DNA of 64,000 nucleotides from Deltaproteobacteria bacterium IMCC39524. GTDB taxonomy: Bacteria > Desulfobacterota > Desulfuromonadia > Desulfuromonadales > BM103. The notes under the pieces are model-generated. The model saw nothing but the letters and a program-made list of their open reading frames with translations. It did no database searches and was not told the origin of the DNA. Numbering within the stretch: the first letter of the stretch is position 1; every line of letters begins with the position of its first letter. Of this stretch, positions 45,450-64,000 are shown one piece after another. The DNA lies in assembly GCA_029667085.1 (NCBI GenBank), contig JARUHJ010000001.1:62001-126000 (forward strand), in the 5' to 3' direction. The position numbers and the translations under genes are program-made.

Positions 45450-45480
45450 ATAATCGCTTTTTCAGAACGCTGTTTTTAAA

Positions 45481-45556
45481 GCCCGGAACTTGTGCCGGAG
45501 CTGCACTAAAAAAATGGTTAAACGACATACCGCCTGGATCGATGAGACCGGGACGG
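45481..45556 (+). promoter_or_regulatory. Tandem bulged-A hairpins in the panB leader, pan RNA motif candidate
   Basis: First hairpin: GCCCGG (45481-45486) pairs with CCGG-A-GC (45495-45501), leaving A45499 bulged. Second: CCGCCTGG (45530-45537) pairs with CCGGG-A-CGG (45548-45556), leaving A45553 bulged. The pan RNA motif is known upstream of panB/panC genes, includes Deltaproteobacteria, has bulged adenosines and is often tandem. The match is by eye only. Further pairing (GGCAGT 45555-45560 with ACTGCC about 45602-45607) extends the leader structure. Confidence 0.55.
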
Positions 45557-45667
45557 CAGTAGTAGTAAGGAACACGATCGGTGCCTGCACCGTGACATGC
45601 GACTGCCTTCCGTACGGACTCGGGGGGCTTTTTTCGTTTTAGATATGATTTCAGGAGGTTAACACCC

Positions 45668-51645: not shown

Positions 51646-51997
51646 GGGGGTGCCAAGGTTTCGACGGGGATTGGAAGCGCTGGTTGCATGCCGGAGTGGG
51701 CTGGCTCCGTAACAAAGCCCAACACATACAAACGCCGATACTGACGTTCGTTACGCATTAGCAGCTTAATTGCTGTTACGTCTCTTGTTTCATCGCCCAT
51801 GTGGTGCAGAAGACGTTAATTATAGTGGGATAGCCTTTGTGAGTGTCCGTGGCACTTAGGCGAAACTTAAGCGGACTCGCCTGTAATATATCCTGTTCGT
51901 GGGAGATCTTGCCGGTTAATTAAAACACGAACTACGCATGTAGACGCTTGACGTGAAAGATTTTCGGACGCGGGTTCGATTCCCGCCACCTCCACCA
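51646..51997 (+). ncRNA. ssrA: Transfer-messenger RNA
   Basis: The 5' end GGGGGTG pairs with CACCTCC before the 3' ACCA (51994-51997), giving the tRNA-like acceptor; the T-arm GGGTTCGATTCCC is near 51972-51984, and GGTTTCGACGGGGATTGG near the 5' end is conserved in tmRNA. The tag reading frame at 51734-51769 encodes ADTDVRYALAA then TAA, ending in the LAA typical of degradation tags. smpB is just upstream. The 3' end is the attachment site of the element that follows. Confidence 0.96.
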
Positions 51998-52018
51998 TTA
52001 GAAAGTCTCTGATTTCAG

Positions 52019-53326
52019 CTATTTAACGAGCTGTAGTCGGTGACTTTCGCCAAAACTTTCGCCATCCTCGGTCATCCAGGCCAGGGTGGCGATGGTTTTT
52101 GGGCCTAAGAAGTCCCGCCCGAAATAGGCGAACAGGGCTGGAGCATCCAGCTCCAAGCCTTCAACGTAGTCCCCATACGTATCGTAAATCATCTTTTTTG
52201 AGCTGTGACCCATCAGTTTGACCAGTCGGTTGGGATCCATGCGCAGGGTCAAGGCCCAGGCCACATAGGAGTGACGCATGGTGTACGGCACTTTGTAATC
52301 CATCCCTGCGGCTTTAAACGCCCGTGTCCATGCATTGGATCGAAATGAGCCCTCATGGAAGGGGCGGTCGTTGGCCATAGTGAACACATAGTCGCCTTCC
52401 GTTTGTGCCAATGCATGGTCGAGGCGTTGTCGGATCGCTTGCGTGATTGGAATCCGTCGATGCCTATAAACGGTCTTGAGGCTTTCTTGGTCTTGGCCTT
52501 TGACCCGAGCATGGCGGATGATGATCTCATCGTTGGTCAGGTCCGTCCGTTTCAACCCCGCTACTTCTGAGGCAATCATCCCCGTCATGATCATGATCTC
52601 GGCAACCGGGTGGTAGTGTGGTTCCAGGTGTTCAAGCAGTTGCTGCCATTGTTCAAAACGAAAAACGGTCCGTTTGACTTTCCGGCTCTGAGGCAAATGC
52701 TTGTGCAGGTTGCGAAACGGATCGGGCAGATCCCAATGGTACTCGTCGCAAGCGTCCTCGAACAGGGTACGCAGCGGGATCAAAACGTTACGTGCCCAAG
52801 CCCGTGAGACCATCTCGCCTTTCTTTGGTTCTTTAAGGTAGCGCAATTGACCAATAAACTTGCGTACTTCCACTCGGTTTAACTGGTGAAAAGTCAGCTC
52901 GGCAAAGTACGGCCGGATGCGACCTTCAACGATCTTGCCATAGTCCCGTCGCTTGTTGGCCGATGGAAACGTGGCAACAACCTCATCAAGCCATGTGCCC
53001 AAATAATCCCCGATCAACACCTGGTGTGGCTTGGGTCGGTATTCTCTGCCTTCTTGTTTTGCGAACCAGTTCTTGTCCTTCTCGCTGGCATCTGGAAAGG
53101 CATCTTCAAACCGGAACGTACCTTCGTCGATCTTGTCCATGACCCGATCGAGCCACTCCCTCAGTACTGTTTTGTTCTCCGGGGTGTCTACTAGGCCGGT
53201 GGACCTTTCGATCCGTTTGCCCCGATAGCGAAAGTCTACATAGAGCTTGCGCGATCCCTTTTTGCGGGTGATCACCCCGCGTCTGGATTGTGTGGTAGCT
53301 ATTTTCATATCAATGCGATTTTTCAT
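52019..53326 (-). CDS. int: Tyrosine-recombinase integrase
   Basis: A 435-residue phage-type integrase with an N-terminal arm-binding part (SRKLYVDFRYRGKRIERSTG), SAM-like core-binding domain and C-terminal catalytic domain. Catalytic residues: Arg of TMRHSYV, His of MGHSSKK and the nucleophilic Tyr in YDTYGDYVEG. The position of the first conserved Arg reads TGMIASEVAGL, with Ile where Arg is usual, and the H of HxxR is Tyr (YTMRH), as in a known integrase branch. It points toward ssrA, as expected for an element inserted there. Ribosome-binding site AAAGGA precedes the start. Confidence 0.92.
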   Translation of the reverse strand: MKNRIDMKIATTQSRRGVITRKKGSRKLYVDFRYRGKRIERSTGLVDTPENKTVLREWLDRVMDKIDEGTFRFEDAFPDASEKDKNWFAKQEGREYRPKPHQVLIGDYLGTWLDEVVATFPSANKRRDYGKIVEGRIRPYFAELTFHQLNRVEVRKFIGQLRYLKEPKKGEMVSRAWARNVLIPLRTLFEDACDEYHWDLPDPFRNLHKHLPQSRKVKRTVFRFEQWQQLLEHLEPHYHPVAEIMIMTGMIASEVAGLKRTDLTNDEIIIRHARVKGQDQESLKTVYRHRRIPITQAIRQRLDHALAQTEGDYVFTMANDRPFHEGSFRSNAWTRAFKAAGMDYKVPYTMRHSYVAWALTLRMDPNRLVKLMGHSSKKMIYDTYGDYVEGLELDAPALFAYFGRDFLGPKTIATLAWMTEDGESFGESHRLQLVK

Positions 53327-53375
53327 TGCACGTATCCTTTCTAGCTACCTCAGCCCTCTATTCGGTTTTGTGTAC

Positions 53376-53414
53376 GTGGTTGATTACCACCTCCTTTAGT
53401 AGAATCGTTTACTA
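53376..53414. promoter_or_regulatory. Inverted/direct repeats upstream of int, possible Int/Xis arm sites
   Basis: GTGGT-TGATT-ACCAC (53376-53390) and TAGTA...TACTA (53397-53414) are two small palindromes. On the minus strand they share GGTGGTAATC and GGTAGTAAAC, direct repeats spaced 24 bases. They lie between the int and AlpA-like genes, a usual place for factor binding. Confidence 0.4.
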
Positions 53415-53442
53415 CCAAGGATAACCGAGTGAGTGCTTGACT

Positions 53443-53724
53443 TCAACGATAGTCGAGGTCGATTGTAGCCCCCTCCGAAGAGGGGGGCTTTGGGTTTAAT
53501 GTCTGCGGGCCTATTTCGATCGAAGGGGTAATGTCTAGGCTGTCTGTCACTAACGACTGGATCAAGTCATTGCCCCAAGGAAAGCGAATGATCCGGTTGA
53601 TTTTGAGATAATGTTGTCCTTGAATCAAATCGCCACTTTTCATCCACTCGAACACTGTTGTTCGGCTAATGCCTAGACGGTGAGCGAATTGCTCGATGGT
53701 CAGGAGTTCGTCAGTAGATTTCAT
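53443..53724 (-). CDS. AlpA/excisionase-like helix-turn-helix protein
   Basis: A 93-residue protein with an N-terminal winged HTH of the AlpA/MerR kind (TIEQFAHRLGISRTTVFEWM), followed by KINRIIRFPWGND, typical of phage excisionase and AlpA-type regulators. It lies directly upstream of int on the same strand, which supports a role in excision or int expression. The C-terminal 30 residues have low similarity to anything I know. Confidence 0.78.
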   Translation of the reverse strand: MKSTDELLTIEQFAHRLGISRTTVFEWMKSGDLIQGQHYLKINRIIRFPWGNDLIQSLVTDSLDITPSIEIGPQTLNPKPPSSEGATIDLDYR

Positions 53725-53730
53725 AAAACC

Positions 53731-54129
53731 TCACGTTTGTTTTTTCTCGTTACAAGTTGTCTTGCCGTCCAATTCTTCAAGAAGTTGGTTAATCAACCGT
53801 TTGACTTGAAGCCTTTCCTCTGGCGTAGACTCTGGAATCGATGGTTCTATTCGACGCAGTGGTGGACGTGGGGGCAGTGCGTCAAAGAAATCCTGCGGTG
53901 CTGGCCAGCGCTTGCCTCTTCGGCATATACGAGTGAATGCGTGACGGATTCGCGGAACGTCAATCTCTTCGTCCGGATTGCCGAGTTCTCTGGCAATAAC
54001 ACTGACCCATGTTCGGACGGTATACTCTAAGACATCCCGTGCAGGTTGTCCGTCCATTGAAAGGGTGACGAGTAATTGAAAACCTTCTACAATTTCATCT
54101 TTTATCCAAGGGTGACTTTGTCTTGACAT
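53731..54129 (-). CDS. Possible phage replication protein P-like helicase loader
   Basis: A 132-residue helical protein. VPRIRHAFTRICRRGKRWPA PQDFFDALPPRP recalls small phage proteins that follow an O-like origin protein and load the helicase. It overlaps the O-like gene by 28 bases, in the same O-then-P order as in lambdoid phages. The identification rests on order and this motif only; without it the protein would be called hypothetical. It ends seven bases before the AlpA-like gene starts. Confidence 0.45.
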   Translation of the reverse strand: MSRQSHPWIKDEIVEGFQLLVTLSMDGQPARDVLEYTVRTWVSVIARELGNPDEEIDVPRIRHAFTRICRRGKRWPAPQDFFDALPPRPPLRRIEPSIPESTPEERLQVKRLINQLLEELDGKTTCNEKKQT

Positions 54130-54677
54130 TTTAGGGCCTCCAGATCGGTTAGGGTTAATGCTCTTGTACTGGCTCTATCCGTTTGTTTCGATATCGATAT
54201 AATTTCAACCTCCTTTCCTACGTCGTGAACTTCAAAAAAAGGGCTTTCTTTAGATTGTTTTATTTCTGCTTTATTTATAGTTCTGCCTGAGTGCAGAGGG
54301 CTATTTCTGCTCAACTGCCGAAGGGGCTTCTGCACCTTGTTAACGTTCTGCTCATTGGCAGAAACCATCCATGAAGCAGGAGAAGTCACGCTGTAATAGT
54401 TGCCATTGCTTGAGCGAGCTTTAAGGACGACTCCTTTGGTGATCAAACTTTTAATTGCCCGTTCAACCGATCGTTTTGAAATGCCTGTGGAGCTGCTCAG
54501 ATATGAAAAGGGGAGAACACTTCGTTTTCTGTGGTATCCATGTGTCATCCGGATGATCAACAGCAATACGCAGATTTCCTCGTTACGAAACCGAGTACGG
54601 AATAGTGCCTCGAGTAAATTATTCTCTACTTGGGTGTAACCACTCGTTGGTTGATGTCTTTGGTCTTGAGCTTCCAT
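54102..54677 (-). CDS. Phage replication protein O-like
   Basis: A 191-residue protein with an N-terminal winged-helix region like the O protein family: GYTQVENNLLEALFRTRFRN, then EEICVLLLIIRMTHGYHRKR and SKRSVERAIKSLITKGVV. The ATG at 54677 is preceded by GAAAGGA and fits the domain start; longer upstream frames are not needed. The C-terminal part (from about residue 110) is rich in Asn/Ser/Lys. It would bind the element's origin. No origin iterons were found inside the gene by eye. Confidence 0.68.
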   Translation of the reverse strand: MEAQDQRHQPTSGYTQVENNLLEALFRTRFRNEEICVLLLIIRMTHGYHRKRSVLPFSYLSSSTGISKRSVERAIKSLITKGVVLKARSSNGNYYSVTSPASWMVSANEQNVNKVQKPLRQLSRNSPLHSGRTINKAEIKQSKESPFFEVHDVGKEVEIISISKQTDRASTRALTLTDLEALKCQDKVTLG

Positions 54678-54769
54678 GATTGCTGGTCCTTTCAATATGT
54701 TTTTGTCTCTAGGCGTCCACTCGTCACCATTAATCTTGCATTGCTGGAGATGTCCTTCTGCAAATCCCA

Positions 54770-54973
54770 TCACTTTCTCGATGAGAAACATTCATCAGGT
54801 GATAGTTCCAGGATTTCCCCGATTGCTATGACTCGAGGGTCGTTTTCGCTCGGGTTTTCGATGCCGTTGAGAAGTTTAGATAGAGTCGAGGGGTGGATGC
54901 CGGCTTGCTGCGCAACAACGTAGTGCCGATTGTGGTGAAGCCGTAAGGTGTCTCTGAATTTTTTGCTGATCAT
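54770..54973 (-). CDS. XRE/Cro-type repressor
   Basis: A 67-residue helix-turn-helix protein: YVVAQQAGIHPSTLSKLLNG is the HTH. A perfect palindrome lies 16 bases upstream of its start (54989-55002) and overlaps the expected promoter, so it is probably autoregulated. It heads the minus-strand replication and integration genes of the element and is the likely switch controlling them. Confidence 0.8.
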   Translation of the reverse strand: MISKKFRDTLRLHHNRHYVVAQQAGIHPSTLSKLLNGIENPSENDPRVIAIGEILELSPDECFSSRK

Positions 54974-54988
54974 CTCAATCTCCTATGC

Positions 54989-55002
54989 AGAATAATTATT
55001 CT
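54989..55002. promoter_or_regulatory. Palindromic operator upstream of the XRE gene
   Basis: AGAATAATTATTCT is a perfect 14-base palindrome between the XRE ATG (54973) and the upstream promoter region, where a -10-like TATTCT is part of it. It is the natural candidate binding site of the XRE protein. Confidence 0.55.
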
Positions 55003-55089
55003 TCTACATAAGGAAAAAGGGACAATAAGGGGGGGGAGCTTATTTTCTCATGCCGGTTTAGGCGAGATTAAGTAAGGTGGAGCGGATGT

Positions 55090-56175
55090 TCAATCGAGGT
55101 CTGTAGGCTGGTGTGCTCTGCTGGCCAGAAGGTCTAGAATTTCATGGTCATGAGTTTTTTCTCGCATACTACTAACAACATCCTGCTCGATGAAATGGAG
55201 AATTTCTGGGCAGGGGTCAATGCAAGTTGCATACGTCGGGCAGGTCTCACAGGTTTTATTCAGCTCGACCTTTCGGATTTCACGAATCTGAACGATTTTC
55301 TTGGGACTATAAGGAACCCCTTGGATTTTCTGAAATACACGGTAGAAACTCGTCTTAACCCAGTCAATATCTTTATTCATCTGCTTGGCTATCAGTGGAA
55401 AACTCATACGTGTTTTGCGGAGTTTCCAAACCTCAAGTTGTTCCCATGTCTCCTGCCTTATGCGACTGTTGTAAATGTCCCAGGGTTTCGCGAACATGTA
55501 TGGGCATTCTTCAATACTTGTTGTTGCCCATTCAGCCTGAAGCCGTAGATCTAAATTCTGCACATCCTTTTGAGTCTCTATTGCATGATCTATGATCTCT
55601 GTGAATTGATCGATCATGTCAGCTCTTGGACGGCTGAGATCAATTTTCAATAAGCGTTCATGGTGATGTAGGTCCAAGTTGACCTGAGATCTGTATCGGA
55701 GATTATTTACTTTTATATTATTGCGGTCTTCAGGAGCTCTATCATGGCTGATGAGGTTTGGCGCCAACCCGTATTCAACAACTGCATCTTTATGGAACAG
55801 TCTGGGTAGCATTCGCTGTAGCTGTATTGAGGATAAGTCTTCAAGGTTTTTGGCGGGAGAGAGCAGGGTTAAAATTTCCTCCACGGGGATGCTGTTAAGT
55901 TGGGTCTCCCGTATAAACGATGGATTGATGTCGAATGGAAGTTTTTTATCAATTCCGCCGAAAAAGGGTTCTTCTCTTATAGCCATCAAGTCTGTACGCA
56001 TAATGTAAGCTTGGTAATCTTCAGCAGCCAAGCGAAACTCTGGACATATTTCATAAGGGGCTTTTGTCAGTACCTCAACGAAATCCAAAAACTGAAAATT
56101 CTCTTTCAAAAGTGCTAGACGTAGTTCAGCTATAGATATCCGTTTGGCTGTAGGTATTTGTTTAGAAGATTTCAT
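55090..56175 (-). CDS. Element-encoded protein of unknown function with a C-terminal Cys cluster
   Basis: A 361-residue protein with no recognised family. The middle has a helix-turn-helix-like stretch (FPLIAKQMNKDIDWVKTSFY, about residues 262-281) and the C-terminal part a Cys cluster CETCPTYATCIDPC (C-x2-C-x5-C-x3-C) that could hold zinc or an Fe-S cluster. It is divergent from the terminase-like gene, with a perfect palindrome between them. It could be a regulator, for example a sigma-like or metal-dependent switch, but this is only a guess. Confidence 0.7.
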   Translation of the reverse strand: MKSSKQIPTAKRISIAELRLALLKENFQFLDFVEVLTKAPYEICPEFRLAAEDYQAYIMRTDLMAIREEPFFGGIDKKLPFDINPSFIRETQLNSIPVEEILTLLSPAKNLEDLSSIQLQRMLPRLFHKDAVVEYGLAPNLISHDRAPEDRNNIKVNNLRYRSQVNLDLHHHERLLKIDLSRPRADMIDQFTEIIDHAIETQKDVQNLDLRLQAEWATTSIEECPYMFAKPWDIYNSRIRQETWEQLEVWKLRKTRMSFPLIAKQMNKDIDWVKTSFYRVFQKIQGVPYSPKKIVQIREIRKVELNKTCETCPTYATCIDPCPEILHFIEQDVVSSMREKTHDHEILDLLASRAHQPTDLD

Positions 56176-56184
56176 GAGATAAAC

Positions 56185-56198
56185 GTCAATAAATTGAC
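56185..56198. promoter_or_regulatory. Palindromic operator in a divergent promoter region
   Basis: GTCAAT-AA-ATTGAC, perfect arms with a two-base centre, ten bases upstream of the 55090-56175 gene start and about 60 bases before the terminase-like gene. It probably controls one or both. Confidence 0.5.
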
Positions 56199-56256
56199 AC
56201 TCAAACAGTGCGATGTTAATTTGTCAGATAAATACTTCCAATGGAGGGCAATCAAA

Positions 56257-56718
56257 ATGTACTTCGAGAACGCGAGAAATGGTAGTGAAAAAACAGCAGA
56301 TAAAGATTCTTTGCAGTTTGGTAGCGATTTGAACACTAGTCCAAAAGGTCGAAAAGAAAAAACAGACAAGCTTCTGAATTATCTAAGTAATCCAGAAAAC
56401 CCATGGCTTGATCGCCAAACTCTCGCAACAGAGGTTCTCGGTTATAGTAAGCCACAATCGCTCTGGAACTTGTTTCAAGGATCTGAACTTGATGAAATCG
56501 AGAAGGAAGCTCTTGAGCTCAGGCGGCAACGTTGTTCAACGATCTCAGCCAAGGTCGATCAAGCTTTGTTGAAAAAGGCTCTTGAGGGTGACGTTAAGGC
56601 AATTAAACTCTACTACCAGCGCTACGAAAATTGGAGTGAGAGACAGATCCTGGATCATCAACTTGACGGGCCACCATTGATTACTATCACAAATTACAGC
56701 AACTCTGATCGTGATTGA
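56257..56718 (+). CDS. Phage terminase small-subunit-like protein
   Basis: A 153-residue protein; ATG at 56257 follows GGAGGG. The region KLLNYLSNPENPWLDRQTLA then EVLGYSKPQSLWNLFQG and KVDQALLKKALEGDVKAIKL, YYQRYENWSERQ looks like phage terminase small subunits of the phBC6A51 kind (HTH followed by a helical part). No large subunit or portal gene follows, so it cannot package DNA alone; a separate small subunit is a mark of phage-satellite elements. It is the only + strand gene in the element. Confidence 0.6.
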   Translation: MYFENARNGSEKTADKDSLQFGSDLNTSPKGRKEKTDKLLNYLSNPENPWLDRQTLATEVLGYSKPQSLWNLFQGSELDEIEKEALELRRQRCSTISAKVDQALLKKALEGDVKAIKLYYQRYENWSERQILDHQLDGPPLITITNYSNSDRD

Positions 56719-56789
56719 CAAATACTGGTATCGTCTGAAATCTCTCGCTCAAAATCTTCAATAATGAAAAAGCAATTTAGAATTTATTG

Positions 56790-57485
56790 CTAATTGTTTA
56801 ATAAGGCCGCTTGCTTTGCTCGTTTGATAACATTTTTCACTGCCGACGCAGTCCATGACCCATGCTTGCCACTCGCTGTCAAAATCCCATTACGGTTCAA
56901 TTCCTGAGCAATGCCTCTCAGTGTGTATTCCTTTTTTAAATATCGAAGAATTATTGGGTAGCGCTTCAAGGCGAAGTCAGTAGCTTTTTGAGATCTAATT
57001 GCTTGGCTATTCTCTAGCCCTTGTTTGCGTCCGAGATCTGATAAATTGTTGCGACCAAGTTTTGTTCCTCTTGCCTTTGCTGCTGCTAACGCCTCTTTGG
57101 TCCGTTTCGAGATCATTTCACGTTCGTGCTCAGCAACGGCTGCCAGAATATGGATTGTTAAACGGTTGGCTTGTGGAAAATCGCAAGCTACAAACTCAAC
57201 CCCTGACTCCATAAGCGTGCTGATGAAATAAACATTTCGGGACAGACGGTCAAGTTTAGCAATTATCAGAGTTGCACCCGTTTCAAGGCATGACTCTATT
57301 GCTGATTGCAGTTGAGGCCTTTCATTCTTCTTGCCACTCTCGACCTCCAGGTATTCATGTATAAGCTCTCTCTTGTCTCTTGCCAGGAAACAATCGATGG
57401 CTTGGCGTTGTGCATCGATCCCTAAGCCACTTTTGCCTTGGCGATCTGTAGATACCCGCAAATAGCTAACGTATCTTTCTGGCAT
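56790..57485 (-). CDS. Serine resolvase/invertase
   Basis: A 231-residue serine recombinase. The nucleophile is the Ser of YLRVSTDRQGKSG; further signatures are LIIAKLDRLSRN and the helix with HEREMISKRTKEALAAAKARG. A C-terminal helix-turn-helix (YTLRGIAQELNRNGILTASG, then WTASAVKNVIKRA) binds DNA. It may resolve multimers or be a separate mobile gene next to the element. It is transcribed toward the terminase-like gene. Confidence 0.92.
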   Translation of the reverse strand: MPERYVSYLRVSTDRQGKSGLGIDAQRQAIDCFLARDKRELIHEYLEVESGKKNERPQLQSAIESCLETGATLIIAKLDRLSRNVYFISTLMESGVEFVACDFPQANRLTIHILAAVAEHEREMISKRTKEALAAAKARGTKLGRNNLSDLGRKQGLENSQAIRSQKATDFALKRYPIILRYLKKEYTLRGIAQELNRNGILTASGKHGSWTASAVKNVIKRAKQAALLNN

Positions 57486-57701
57486 GATAGGTCTCCTGAA
57501 TCTGAAGGGTGTACTATGTGGTTAAATGTTGGTTTAACTAAACTATACAAGATGGAAAATAAATATCAGTCGCTGTTGGTTTGAAAGGTAGTTAGGGTAG
57601 GGCATTTTGGGTTGTGTTTAATATGTTGATACATAGCAACCTGGCGCTAAAAGGGAGTGTCACTAATTGGTTTGATGTTCGTAGTAGTGGCAGTAGTAAG
57701 T

Positions 57702-57740
57702 GGTAGGGGTAGGGGTAGGGGTAGGGGTAGGGGTAGGGGG
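57702..57740 (+). repeat. Tandem GGGGTA repeat, G-quadruplex-prone
   Basis: Six G runs of four or five bases, each separated by TA, from 57706 to 57740 (unit GGGGTA). It is on the + strand, in the intergenic space after the resolvase gene, and adjoins GTAGTAGTGGCAGTAGTAAG. Four or more G4 runs with two-base loops form stable quadruplexes. Confidence 0.9.
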
Positions 57741-58052: not shown

Positions 58053-58137
58053 GCTCTCCGATAAGAGCAAACCTGTCGTGAGGCAGGGGCGCAAAGCTAA
58101 TGGGTCCCATGAGGGGACAGCCAGGCTGCCGAAGAGA
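58053..58137 (+). promoter_or_regulatory. GEMM-I riboswitch, cyclic AMP-GMP-type variant
   Basis: The aptamer has the GEMM-I core: AGAGCAAACC (58064-58073), a CCTGTC-GTGA-GGCAGG stem with a GNRA tetraloop, GCGCAAAGCTAATGGGTC, and the closing AGCCAGGCTGCCGAAG. Aligned to the Vibrio Vc2 aptamer, the position of G20, which reads the first guanine of the ligand, is A66 here (58066). Natural GEMM-I variants with A at that position in Geobacter sense cyclic AMP-GMP rather than cyclic di-GMP. A terminator follows, so it probably acts on transcription. Confidence 0.9.
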
Positions 58138-58167
58138 TTGCAACAGTCAATCTGGGTTAATTTGTAC

Positions 58168-58198
58168 CCCATCTTCGGTCTTGGAGATGGGCTTTTTT
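58168..58198 (+). terminator. Terminator of the riboswitch expression platform
   Basis: CCCATCTTC pairs with GGAGATGGG around a six-base loop and is followed by C and six T. It lies 30 bases after the aptamer and 36 before the ATG at 58234. Ligand binding probably changes whether it forms. Confidence 0.88.
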
Positions 58199-58233: not shown

Positions 58234-58875
58234 ATGCTTCGTGCCCTTAGTTTTATGCTTATATCTCATTTTTTGCTTCTATCTATTACGATCACGAATG
58301 GGTACTGTCAAAAAGGAGGCGTGGCTGCCGTTAAATCACTCGAAAGAAAGAATAGTAAAAATCAAAGCCGTGTCATTTTAAACAAAGACCGCGTTGTGAT
58401 TAATCGCGGTACTCCCAAAGACATGTCGGCTGATGGGATTTATCTCTGGCTTGATAAGCAAGGTCTGTGGCAACTGCGGTGGCACGGTGAGCCAGGAAAG
58501 ATGGTCTGGGTCCGATTTGAAGGTGAGAATGATGCAGGTGATGTGAATGTTATTGGTGAGAAAACGAAGTATTTTATCTCGAATGATATCTCACTCACTG
58601 TCATGGGCCTTTCTGATAGAAAATTACAGGGCATCTCATTTTCTAGCGATACGGAGTTCGCCATTTTGGATGCAAAGTGGGGCGATGATATTTCAAGCGA
58701 AATTCTCTTTCTAGGAGAAAGAAGCGCAATGTCGGAAGTGATTCCCTTAGGTTTATTCGCACCTTATTTCAAAGGGAAAAAAAAATCTTATAGTTCATTT
58801 GATGAATCAAAAATAAAACGAGACAAAATGGATGGTAGTAACAATGTAATGGCTAGTCCGAGGGGTGAAAAATGA
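58234..58875 (+). CDS. Secreted protein under riboswitch control, function unknown
   Basis: A 213-residue exported protein (signal about residues 1-25, MLRALSFMLISHFLLLSITI then NGYCQ). AGGAG lies before the ATG. The mature part is beta-rich (RVILNKDRVVINRGTPKDMS, DGIYLWLDKQGLWQLRWHGE) and ends in a Lys/Asp-rich tail; no family recognised. Its stop overlaps the protease start by four bases, so they are translated together. It may be a chaperone, inhibitor or substrate of that protease. Confidence 0.75.
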   Translation: MLRALSFMLISHFLLLSITITNGYCQKGGVAAVKSLERKNSKNQSRVILNKDRVVINRGTPKDMSADGIYLWLDKQGLWQLRWHGEPGKMVWVRFEGENDAGDVNVIGEKTKYFISNDISLTVMGLSDRKLQGISFSSDTEFAILDAKWGDDISSEILFLGERSAMSEVIPLGLFAPYFKGKKKSYSSFDESKIKRDKMDGSNNVMASPRGEK

Positions 58876-61800
58876 ACAGAAGCATAATGAGTATACTTCT
58901 CGAAAACAAGAACCTCATAGTAATTATAACTTTTTTATTTGTACATGTTTGTACCCCATTAGCACATTCAAAAGGCAAGCCTTTAGTTGACCCCAAAATT
59001 TCAAAAATTAATATAAATGAAGAATTACATTTGATTATCGAAATAAAGGGAGAGAATCAAAAATATAATGAACGTAGATATATTAATGATGATGAAAATA
59101 AAATAACAAAAAAGGAAATTAAAAGAAATATTGGTTTATTTAAAAAATGGTTACTAGATAATGATATTAATAAAGTTAAAATACTTTTTGAATATGATTT
59201 TATCCCATTCATAGAAATATCTGCCCCAAAGAGCGACTTAGATCTAATTTTACAATGTCCATATGTTTCATTAGTAGAGATCCCAGGAAAGCTAAAGCCT
59301 TTATTGCAAGAGAGTAAAAATCTTATTGGTGTAGATAAGGTTCATCAGCGGGGCTATACAGGTTCTGGTGTGGGGATTGCGATTATTGACTCTGGAATAG
59401 ATCGGTGGCATTCAGATTTTCAGGGTAGGATTGTTGCTGAAGCATGTTTCGTTAGCTCTTATCCAGCATTAGGTGGATGCTCTGGAAATAAAGAAGTTGA
59501 TTATGGTCCAGGTAGTGCAACTGACATTGATGGCCATGGTACAGGAGTAGCTGGAATTGCAGCTGGTGAAAATGGTATTGCACCTAGCTCAAATATCGTC
59601 GTAGCAAAAATAAATTCCGGTGATTGGAAAACATTTTATGAAATGAATGATATGACAAGGGCTTTGCAATGGATTTACTCAATCAAAAATGATCATAATA
59701 TTAAAGTTGTTAACATTAGTTATGGTGGCCGTCTATCAAACACGTATTGTGATAATGATTTTGGTTTTGTGTCTCTCAATGCAGCTATTCAAACACTTGT
59801 CAATGACGATATTACGGTAGTCGTTGCCTCTGGTAACGACAGCAGTACTTCTGGGATTGATTATCCAGCTTGTTTCTCAAATGTCATTTCAGTCGGAAGT
59901 GTATACGATGAAGATGATCCATTGTCATCTTGTCCAGATCTAGGGTTTGAAGATAGCGTTTATTGTACAAGCAATTCGTCACCTATATTAGATTTGCTTG
60001 CCCCGGGGCATAAGATTTTTTCAGCATGGATTAGCCCAGGTGCAACATCCGTCCATTCGACTCAAACTCCATATTTGCATTCTTCAGGAACTTCTCTAGC
60101 AGCACCTCATGTCGCCGGTTTGGCGGCATTGCTTTATGAGCAAGGAGTCTATACTACTCCCTCTTCAATTGAGACGAGACTTAAACAAACTGGTGTTCCA
60201 GTAAATGATTCAAGGGCTGGAATTAATCAAGACTTCCCTAGAGTTAGCGCCACAAACGCATTAGATGATGGTAATGCCCCTTCTGTAAATGAAGTGATAA
60301 ATTACAATCACTTCTATACCGATTTTGTTATTAAGTTTTCAGAACCAATGGATGAAGATTCATTTCCGGGCGGAATCTCTTTAAATGTTAATGGCCAACC
60401 ACAAACTTTTACACTTCCATCTTCATCTTACAATTCAGCTACATATGCATTAACTATAGATCCTGATCAAGTTTTTAGCTATTCAGACCTTATTGAACTG
60501 AGTATTTCAGGTGTAAACGACTGGGCTGGCCACACGATGGCTGCACCGTATGTTCATACTGTCAATATGCCCTCTAATACTGTTCCTAGCTCTATAGATT
60601 TGTCAGTCTCTCTATCCCCGGACCCTGCTGATCCATACGAAGTTGTCACAGTGTCAGGAACAGCCTACTACGATATTGGCACTCCAGTCTTGTCAGGATC
60701 AATTTCTACTACAGTAGGTGGCGTTACAAAAAGCAGCATTATCACTAATGGTCTGTTTGAGCTCACTATTTATGCCCCGGCTTCTACTCAATCAGTAACT
60801 TTAGATGCCGTGGCAATAGATACAAACTTAACTGCTTCATTAGATAAAACTCTTAATGTTGACCCTAATGGCTCTTCTCAGGATGCTTATTACTCGTTAA
60901 GAAGCGGGACATCAAATACCGACATAATTTGGGATTATGATGCTGGGCAGTGGACTTGGAATCCGAGAAGTGTTTTTTCTACAAGTGAAAATGATATGAG
61001 TACTATCGTTTCTATTGATTCAATGGATATATCAAGAACATTAGGCACGAGAGTATACTTCACACATCCCGACGGTACTCCTTTTAGTTGGTCAAGTGGT
61101 GATTTTGAAGGCCTATCTTACGTAGAGGGTGGTTGTTCAAAGTCTTGGTCTGGGTGTGGATGGTCTCCTGGTCACTTAATAAAGGGTTCCTATCCTGAGT
61201 CTCATCCCGGTAAATACACAACAAGAATCAAGTTTAATGAAAACTTTGGGGGTGGGTGGTATCGGGTTGCGACACACCAATACGTTATTGGTTTCGATTT
61301 TCAACAACACAGGATGGCTGAAAATGTTGTCGATGGCAATCCACAGAATGTTAAAAACTCATTTACCATTGGGGAATCCATTTACTCGTGGGCGAGAATT
61401 AATGATGTAGCCCAGCCAATTGATTATAAATGGGAGTATTACAAGCCTGACGGAAGCAAGTTCGATAGCAGAGATGGACACATTACTTCTGATGAATATT
61501 CTTTGCCGTCTTCATTTAGAATGTGGGATTCATTTATGTCCGGCAGCTATTGGCCTGCTGATTTTGAAGGTGCATGTGGTAATTGGAAGGTAAAGTTCAA
61601 GATAAAAAATCCTTCATCAGGTGTTTTTGAAGAATACTATGAGGATGTCTTCAATGTCACTGAAAGTGAGCCGCCAAGCCTTTATTTTCATAATGTATAT
61701 CCCTCAATAGACGGTAATTTAATAATTTACGATGGCAACAAGGTTCGTGGTGAACTTGAAGAAAATTATTCAATAAGGATGGGTGGAAACTTTAGTGATA

Positions 61801-64000
61801 ATCTTAGAGTTGAAAAGATAATTTATTTCTGGAATGACGGATCAATACATAGTCTTGAATTTGATCGTCAGGACTTCACGCCACAGAATAATTTTATCTA
61901 CCATGATAATCGTTGGTCTCATCATCATGAAATTCCCCCCATTAACGGTGTCTCCCAGGTTGAGTTTTGGGCAGAAGTATGGGATTCCTGCGGCAACAAA
62001 TATGAGAGTGAACATAGAACCGAAACCATCAAACCTGAAACCGTATCTATTCCGTCTCTTGATGTCTCGTTATTCTCTGTTAAACCAGGCGAACAAGTCC
62101 ATTTGGTGGGTTCTGGGAGCACAACCTCACAAGAACATAATGTTGAATATCGTTTTGACTACGGAGATGGGACTCAATCCGCTTGGGGGGCCGCAGAAAT
62201 TGATCATTCTTGGCCAACAAATGGCCATTTCCCTGTAAAAGTTCAAGCCCGGTGTCAGGTTCATACTCATAGAGAATCTTCTTGGTCTAATGCCATTTAC
62301 ATCCTTGTTGATAATAGTGGCCCAGAGATAACAAACGTTATCATCAACGACGATGAAGCTGCTACGGCATCCTCAAATGTTCAATTAACTCTAACTTGCA
62401 GTGATGACGGTTTTGCAAGTTGCTCAGAAATGCAATTGAGCAATGACAATACTAATTGGTCTGCAGCAGAACCCTATTCAGCAATTAAAGAGTGGACACT
62501 TTCTTCAGGAGACGGGACAAAAACTGTTTTTGTAAAGTTTGCAGATGGCAATGGCAACTGGAGTGTGGCCGCCACAGACACAATTGATCTTGACACAACA
62601 ATTCCAACCGGGTCGATTGTCATTGATGGTGATGCAGCATATGCTACGAGTTCCTCTGTTACATTGTCGTTGAGCTGTACAGACAGTGGCAGTGGTTGCG
62701 CTGAAATGCAGTTTAGTAATGACAATACGACTTGGACGACCCCAGAGCCGTATGTAGCATCTAAACCATGGACTTTGACCAGCGAAGGGGAACAAGTTGT
62801 TTACGTTCAATTTAAGGACAGTTTAGAAAATTGGACTATTGCCTACAGTGACTCCATATTTGTGGATACGATTCCTCCTGATGTTACCGCCAGTCCTGGT
62901 AGTGGTATCCACCTTGTCAAGCAATGGGTAAGTCTGTCTGCAAGTGAAGGCAGCACGATTTATTACACCTTGGATGGGGTTGATCCAACAACGTCCTCAT
63001 CAATTTACACCCAGCCCTTACTCCTCGAGGGCAGCACTGTTCTAAAGTATTATGTTGTTGATTTAGCAGGGCTCCAAAGCCCTATTAAAACAGACATGTA
63101 TGAATTTAATCATGTCCCTGTTTGGTCAGATCTCTCTGGTAGCTATTCTGATGATTTTGTGTATGGGGTAGTGCAGGATAGTGAAGGCAACCTTTTTGTT
63201 GCAGGTTACACAAGCGGTAGTGTTGAAGGCCAACAAAACCTTGGCGGGAAAGACATTCTCTTAGTCAAGTACGATCCGTTTGGAGAAAGACTTTGGACTA
63301 AGCAGTATGGCTCCAATAAAAACGATGTAGCCAATGATATTGCCTTGGATGCAAACGGAGACATTATTCTCGTCGGTACGACTTCAGGTGATATTAATTC
63401 GCAGGTTAATTCAGGAGGAGGATATTATGGATCTGATGGCTTTGTAATGAAGTTAGATCCAGAAGGAAGCCTTCGTTGGTCTGATTTAATAGGAACTGTT
63501 GAAGATGAAGATGTCGTTGGCGTTTCCTTAGATTCTGTAGGGAAAATTTTTGTAGTTGGTCATACTTCGGGAGTTTTCCCGGGGGAAGTGAGCGCGGGCG
63601 GCGGAGATTATTTTATTGCTAACTATTCTGTAGATGGAACTCGACTTTGGTTGCATCAATACGGCACCGATAGAAGAGAAAATGCTTTCGATATAACTCT
63701 TGATAACAATAACGAGCCCATAGTGACAGGGTTTACTGATGGTGCTTTTAGTGGCTTTGTCAACGCAGGACGTGGAGATATTTATGTTGCTAAGCACACC
63801 AATTCTGGTGAGGTTGTGTGGAGAGACCAGTTGGGCGCATGGGGTTCAGAACTCCCTTTTGCGGTAAATGTAGACCATCAAAATCAAATATATGTCGCTG
63901 GAGTTGTTGGGCCAGGTCCTGAAGGTTTGGATGGCAATCCTTCTGGAGTTGGCTCAGATGCGTTTTTGATTAAATACGATCAAGAGGGTTTGCGTCTTTG
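58872..64000 (+). CDS. Very large secreted subtilisin-like protease (S8), 5' part
   Basis: The frame from ATG 58872 stays open to the window edge: at least 1709 residues. Order: signal peptide (about 1-33); propeptide-like region (to about 155); S8 catalytic domain with Asp173 (IIDSGID), His222 (DGHGTGVAG) and Ser408 (SGTSLAAPHVAG); a Big_5-like Ig domain (about 475-570); further beta domains; a PKD-like domain (about 1060); two Ig-like repeats sharing CSD/CTD...CxEMQxSNDNT; a chitobiase-type STIYYTLDGVDPTTS segment; then SBBP beta-propeller repeats (DGFVMKLDPEGSLRWSDLIG) from about residue 1420. Base composition is AT-rich, notably at 58900-59300. Probably acts outside the cell. Confidence 0.92.
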   Translation, partial: MNRSIMSILLENKNLIVIITFLFVHVCTPLAHSKGKPLVDPKISKININEELHLIIEIKGENQKYNERRYINDDENKITKKEIKRNIGLFKKWLLDNDINKVKILFEYDFIPFIEISAPKSDLDLILQCPYVSLVEIPGKLKPLLQESKNLIGVDKVHQRGYTGSGVGIAIIDSGIDRWHSDFQGRIVAEACFVSSYPALGGCSGNKEVDYGPGSATDIDGHGTGVAGIAAGENGIAPSSNIVVAKINSGDWKTFYEMNDMTRALQWIYSIKNDHNIKVVNISYGGRLSNTYCDNDFGFVSLNAAIQTLVNDDITVVVASGNDSSTSGIDYPACFSNVISVGSVYDEDDPLSSCPDLGFEDSVYCTSNSSPILDLLAPGHKIFSAWISPGATSVHSTQTPYLHSSGTSLAAPHVAGLAALLYEQGVYTTPSSIETRLKQTGVPVNDSRAGINQDFPRVSATNALDDGNAPSVNEVINYNHFYTDFVIKFSEPMDEDSFPGGISLNVNGQPQTFTLPSSSYNSATYALTIDPDQVFSYSDLIELSISGVNDWAGHTMAAPYVHTVNMPSNTVPSSIDLSVSLSPDPADPYEVVTVSGTAYYDIGTPVLSGSISTTVGGVTKSSIITNGLFELTIYAPASTQSVTLDAVAIDTNLTASLDKTLNVDPNGSSQDAYYSLRSGTSNTDIIWDYDAGQWTWNPRSVFSTSENDMSTIVSIDSMDISRTLGTRVYFTHPDGTPFSWSSGDFEGLSYVEGGCSKSWSGCGWSPGHLIKGSYPESHPGKYTTRIKFNENFGGGWYRVATHQYVIGFDFQQHRMAENVVDGNPQNVKNSFTIGESIYSWARINDVAQPIDYKWEYYKPDGSKFDSRDGHITSDEYSLPSSFRMWDSFMSGSYWPADFEGACGNWKVKFKIKNPSSGVFEEYYEDVFNVTESEPPSLYFHNVYPSIDGNLIIYDGNKVRGELEENYSIRMGGNFSDNLRVEKIIYFWNDGSIHSLEFDRQDFTPQNNFIYHDNRWSHHHEIPPINGVSQVEFWAEVWDSCGNKYESEHRTETIKPETVSIPSLDVSLFSVKPGEQVHLVGSGSTTSQEHNVEYRFDYGDGTQSAWGAAEIDHSWPTNGHFPVKVQARCQVHTHRESSWSNAIYILVDNSGPEITNVIINDDEAATASSNVQLTLTCSDDGFASCSEMQLSNDNTNWSAAEPYSAIKEWTLSSGDGTKTVFVKFADGNGNWSVAATDTIDLDTTIPTGSIVIDGDAAYATSSSVTLSLSCTDSGSGCAEMQFSNDNTTWTTPEPYVASKPWTLTSEGEQVVYVQFKDSLENWTIAYSDSIFVDTIPPDVTASPGSGIHLVKQWVSLSASEGSTIYYTLDGVDPTTSSSIYTQPLLLEGSTVLKYYVVDLAGLQSPIKTDMYEFNHVPVWSDLSGSYSDDFVYGVVQDSEGNLFVAGYTSGSVEGQQNLGGKDILLVKYDPFGERLWTKQYGSNKNDVANDIALDANGDIILVGTTSGDINSQVNSGGGYYGSDGFVMKLDPEGSLRWSDLIGTVEDEDVVGVSLDSVGKIFVVGHTSGVFPGEVSAGGGDYFIANYSVDGTRLWLHQYGTDRRENAFDITLDNNNEPIVTGFTDGAFSGFVNAGRGDIYVAKHTNSGEVVWRDQLGAWGSELPFAVNVDHQNQIYVAGVVGPGPEGLDGNPSGVGSDAFLIKYDQEGLRL

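Follow-up and report, generated by a model that had tools for sequence, protein, structure and literature searches.

A class-I GEMM riboswitch before a secreted-protease operon: a predicted OFF-switch with cyclic AMP-GMP as candidate ligand

The locus and its genes

We analysed a 64,000-nucleotide stretch of DNA (hereafter the window; G000:C1:62001-126000) from the 3.78-Mb genome of Deltaproteobacteria bacterium IMCC39524. It contains a GEMM-I (class I cyclic dinucleotide) aptamer, an intrinsic terminator and the start of a protease operon (Table 1). An earlier note on this DNA had described a clean terminator after the aptamer, followed by a secreted protein and a giant subtilase, and this order was borne out: the hairpin at 58168-58191 with its U6 stretch stands between aptamer and operon, the 213-aa ORF has a signal-peptide-like start, and the 3576-aa subtilase contains a Peptidase_S8 domain (E 1.1e-37) with intact D/H/S triad motifs. 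The riboswitch before the protease is real and well formed, and it belongs to a known class.

Table 1. Coordinates of the riboswitch, its pairing strands and the first operon genes (window positions)
Feature	Position	Strand	Basis or remark
GEMM-I aptamer	58057-58134	+	Rfam RF03167 / RF01051; P1 strands reach 58054 and 58136
P strand (5' P1)	58053-58061	+	constrained folding; partner is the A strand (aptamer) or the H strand (antiterminator)
A where Vc2 has G20 (specificity position for the ligand)	58066	+	sequence and alignment to the genome's 37 other GEMM-I
A strand (3' P1), GCCGAAGAG	58128-58136	+	partner is the P strand, or the T strand over 58128-58135
C92 equivalent, forms the Watson-Crick pair with the ligand guanine, inside switching strand	58129	+	place in GCCGA motif, compared with G74/C75/C76 of Geobacter structure 4YAZ
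Two small hairpins, 58136-58152 and 58154-58169	58136-58169	+	folding; form within antiterminator; second takes CC of terminator 5' arm
Intrinsic terminator	58168-58198	+	10-bp hairpin 58168-58191, then U6 58193-58198
T strand, UCUUCGGU	58172-58179	+	covers part of terminator 5' arm and loop; pairs with A strand in antiterminator
H strand (terminator 3' arm)	58181-58192	+	UUGGAGA at 58181-58187 is a possible partner of UCUCCGA (58055-58061) in the P strand
213-aa ORF, signal-peptide-like N-terminus	58234-58875	+	AGGAG ribosome site just upstream
3576-aa secreted subtilase, start	58872-63998	+	runs past window; full ORF L052:2873-13603; Peptidase_S8 at aa 164-441

Besides its protease domain, the subtilase harbors SBBP beta-propeller repeats and CHB_HEX_C (chitobiase-C), PKD, He_PIG, cadherin-like and choice-of-anchor-D-like domains. 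It is followed by a 298-aa choice-of-anchor-D protein, a 132-aa ORF and an HprK-related kinase. The 298-aa ORF (L052:13615-14511) is 39% identical to subtilase residues 3308-3576 and represents a duplicated C-terminal domain. Homologues of the 213-aa protein were found neither in 39 relatives nor in genome_contigs. We also looked for a conserved link between GEMM-I and subtilases and did not find one: among the GEMM-I matches listed for the genus, only one of the ten subtilase matches, that of the window, has an upstream GEMM-I, and the association occurs in this genome only.

Upstream of the riboswitch, the region 51646-57485 comprises a tmRNA directly followed by a tyrosine integrase, an HTH protein, Phage_rep_O and a resolvase, that is, an integrated element. 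The genome contains a single copy of the tmRNA 3' sequence, and a second attachment site was not found there, so that the protease operon as cargo of this element is not supported. Tandem GGGGTA repeats (57699-57740), a possible G-quadruplex, lie between the element and the riboswitch, and a pan motif RNA above the Rfam cut-off is located at 45480-45560. A search for a sigma-70 promoter upstream of the riboswitch returned no match.

Aptamer, terminator and direction of the switch

In the genome search, the aptamer scored 60.2 bits against RF01051, passing the gathering cut-off of 35 bits, and it displays the P1-P2-P3 fold. Its match to RF03167 (c-di-GMP-I-GGC) reached 61.9 bits (E 3.4e-12), but despite exceeding the cut-off of 59 we rejected filing it under this family, whose consensus G20 and G47 are replaced here by A20 and A47 (58093). 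Because these two residues are missing, the aptamer is, judged by its sequence, an ordinary GEMM-I with A20. The core reads G65-A66-G67-C68-A-A-A-C-C, A66 being 58066; A20 and the other aptamer positions named here follow Vc2 numbering. An A at the Vc2 G20 position, as claimed in the earlier note, was confirmed by direct reading and by the alignment, and C92 is kept as well, so that both GEMM-Ib residues are in place. Positions 21 and 46 form a G21-C46 pair (58067/58092).

The terminator lies entirely 3' of the aptamer, 32 nt downstream and with no shared strand, and 38 nt separate the C92 motif from the start of its 5' arm. Since the two do not overlap, ligand-bound aptamer and terminator can coexist. 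The aptamer 3' strand GCCGAAGA (58128-58135), which holds C92, is complementary to UCUUCGGU over exactly 8 bp, one of them G-U, and none of 100 dinucleotide shuffles gave an equally good A-T helix, while 4 of 100 did so for the P-H helix. Constrained folding yielded two competing states, P-A plus T-H (bound, terminated) and A-T plus P-H (unbound, read through). When growing transcripts were folded without constraints, the A-T antiterminator appeared at transcript ends of 58177-58189, with T already out and the terminator hairpin still incomplete. Without ligand, the two outcomes are near-equal in folding energy (-52.7 kcal/mol for the terminator and -52.1 kcal/mol for the antiterminator), and because this slightly prefers the terminator, an ON apo-state rests on co-transcriptional timing.

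A terminator wholly downstream of the aptamer, together with an A strand complementary to T, implies that ligand binding could only favour termination. An aptamer-independent terminator and an antiterminator pairing with the aptamer 3' strand are the hallmarks of a class-I OFF transcription switch of the Cd1 type, and the mark of the Geobacter-type (pilM-type) ON switch, a terminator built from the aptamer 3' strand, is absent. We therefore looked upon the ON-switch model as rejected on anatomy. Slightly better than even, in our estimate, are the chances that this class-I GEMM riboswitch works as a transcription-termination OFF-switch before the secreted-protease operon with cyclic AMP-GMP (cGAMP) as its likeliest ligand. 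According to this proposal, cGAMP would be made by a GacA orthologue; its binding would lock P1 (P with A) and leave the T strand free to pair with H, the terminator would form and the operon would be off. In the absence of ligand, T would capture the A strand including C92 once transcribed, and the resulting antiterminator would let the protease operon be read. Low cGAMP would then lead to release of a protease that acts at the surface, in the manner of C. difficile zmpI/PPEP-1, and by analogy its substrates could be surface proteins of the cell itself.

The opposite direction, implied by the earlier note, would be a cGAMP ON-switch like pgcA or pilM that raises protease expression. In pilM of Geobacter the aptamer 3' strand builds the terminator, so that the ligand turns genes on, and at pgcA cGAMP is reported to favour antitermination (PMC9262584, PMC6456294). 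In favour of such a switch, loss of gacA in G. sulfurreducens lowers every gene that follows a GEMM-Ib switch (PMC6456294), and the C21-G46 group in the genus of the window's genome has an ON-type layout. However, the terminator here shares no strand with the aptamer, and the sole strong alternative pairing depends on the A strand, no longer available once ligand is bound; we thus hold an ON-switch to be improbable. The earlier note, which saw in this locus a widening of the regulon known from electron-transfer genes, missed the direction: on the OFF-type platform found here the messenger should repress the protease, unlike in the ON-type Geobacter regulon. A decayed switch beside a mobile element, with a constitutive terminator or a leaky leader and no ligand control, seems more improbable still. 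The integrase, the resolvase and other element genes 0.5-6 kb upstream, the missing promoter match and a first operon gene lacking from the relatives searched would fit it, but the aptamer is full length and above the Rfam cut-off, and the reciprocal complementarity is intact.

Candidate ligands

A20 had also been put forward as the mark of cGAMP selectivity. The base is present, but A20 alone does not settle the ligand: position 20 of Vc2-type aptamers is a selectivity factor and no hard filter (PMC9262584), and G21 stands here against C21 in 4YAZ. This Geobacter cGAMP aptamer contacts its ligand via A14 and C15 (PMC7288161), which we read as A20-C21 in Vc2 numbering. With G21-C46 the window's aptamer lacks that contact, which need not be obligatory for the family. 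The Vc2 G20A variant does bind cGAMP (PDB 4YB1).

A search for a Hypr GGDEF gene of the serine type, which the earlier note had recommended, recovered two. The genome has 13 GGDEF matches, and two of them (L039 and L038) carry GHxxGS instead of GHxxGD, the Hypr signature, along with GGDEF. L039, a protein of 457 aa adjoining hisS, is a GacA orthologue with Ser345 and GGDEF in place. Its best PDB match is 6d9m (E 4.6e-48), a T4-lysozyme fusion of a response-receiver diguanylate cyclase, and such a fusion has been described for G. metallireducens GacA (PMC6456294). Reading the active-site motif of 29 GacA orthologues showed this serine in every one. Given these conserved residues, cGAMP is likely made in this genome by the criteria of PMC6456294. 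cGAMP signalling is also plausible because, in addition to the two Hypr enzymes, at least 11 of the 38 GEMM-I matches of the genome have an A20/G21-C46 core. We consider cGAMP the probable main ligand of the aptamer.

The same OFF anatomy could instead answer physiologically to cyclic di-GMP or to both dinucleotides, A20 and G21 forming a promiscuous pocket, which we regard as rather unlikely. This reading would agree with the platform common to the G20 and A20 switches of the order, with the exchange of the two bases at orthologous genes and with the ability of cGAMP aptamers to bind c-di-GMP through a protonated A (PMC9262584). The small share of GGDEF matches with the Hypr serine motif (2/13) points the same way. 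On the other hand, the genome does encode two Hypr enzymes, the active-site serine of GacA is invariant among the orthologues read, and A20 is commoner than G20 order-wide in the exact-core scan, an excess that suggests selection for A20. cGAMP remains our preferred ligand.

Related switches and known systems

Among the genes that directly follow the genome's other A20/G21 switches are those for a sensor kinase, a PilZ protein, a sugar transferase, a LamG/Ig surface protein, a beta-helix protein and secreted proteins without known family. Since these switches also precede secreted or surface proteins, a secreted target is ordinary for the set. Four GEMM-I matches of the genome lie within 3 kb (G000:C1:20949-23925).

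In the genus, a separate terminator (OFF layout) was found at 25 of 28 distinct A20/G21 loci and at 13 of 13 distinct G20/G21 loci, and A-T complementarity was at or below 5% of shuffles at 12/25 and 8/13 of them, respectively. Of the three A20 loci with an ON score, L109 and L153 resemble OFF loci on inspection, with an own hairpin that lacks a long T run. Conversely, 14 of 15 C21-G46 loci are ON-type. The GEMM-I loci of this genome and the genus hence fall into two core types, C21-G46 aptamers being almost all ON-type and G21-C46 aptamers almost all OFF-type.

We extended the scan for exact cores to 136 genomes of Desulfuromonadales, with a reversed control that gave no match. Matches to the A20 core numbered about 100 and came from 40 genomes; for the G20 core there were 39, from 25 genomes. 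The OFF layout was seen at 28 of the 29 A20 loci read across the order. The A-T test was passed by 13 of these 28 OFF-type loci (p 2e-10, a guide only, as p-values for A-T enrichment are inflated by shared ancestry), and the P-H helix was not enriched (3/28).

As read from their sequences, orthologous GEMM-I switches within the genus exchange A20 and G20, so that the specificity base is swapped naturally. One such switch, before a response regulator, carries G20 in L003 and L076 and A20 in L078, and a second orthologous switch has G20 in L012 and A20 in L102/L111. L086 (A20) resembles the former by aptamer sequence only.

We tentatively propose, at somewhat less than even chances, that Desulfuromonadales possess a second and large set of cGAMP riboswitches with OFF function, told from the ON-switches by G21-C46 versus C21-G46. 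cGAMP would then activate one regulon and repress another, and a single exchange of G20 and A20 in an orthologous switch would transfer its genes from one dinucleotide, c-di-GMP or cGAMP, to the other. In G. sulfurreducens, where cGAMP switches have been examined in vivo, they act as activators, with electron transfer as their theme. If the proposal is true, surface and secreted functions would be shut off by cGAMP as well, through a repressing set present in about 30% of the order's 136 genomes (strict pattern), and the repressed regulon would consist of surface and secreted proteins, exopolysaccharide, sensors and, here, a giant protease. The natural switch between c-di-GMP and cGAMP would become testable at orthologous loci differing at position 20. 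What appears new is the predicted OFF direction of an A20 switch, its order-wide recurrence and the natural A20/G20 swaps, an earlier report of OFF-type cGAMP switches being possible.

With the Geobacter GEMM-Ib switches (pgcA/Gs1761, Gm0970, pilM 4YAZ), the window's riboswitch shares the GEMM-I fold, A20, a Hypr GGDEF (GacA) in the genome and a transcription-termination platform. It differs from them in G21-C46, where 4YAZ shows an A-C contact, in a terminator formed without the aptamer 3' strand, which predicts OFF rather than ON, and in its target, a secreted subtilase instead of electron-transfer genes. The Vc2 G20A mutant (4YB1) likewise combines A20 with a G21-C46 core, but it is a laboratory mutant, and natural Vc2 has been described as acting on translation.

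In its predicted logic, the window's switch matches the Cd1 class-I c-di-GMP OFF riboswitch of the C. difficile flgB operon, which also has a separate terminator and whose antiterminator captures the strand with the ligand-binding C (PMC9262584). Unlike Cd1, which has G at position 20, the switch of the window has A20, and the 3' arm of its terminator may be an additional partner for its 5' P1 strand. Finally, C. difficile zmpI/PPEP-1 already provides a secreted protease under a class-I GEMM OFF-switch, with c-di-GMP repressing the gene (PMC6366702). Negative control of a secreted protease by a class-I switch, predicted for the window, would be common to both, although zmpI encodes a zinc protease, responds to c-di-GMP and has no Hypr link.
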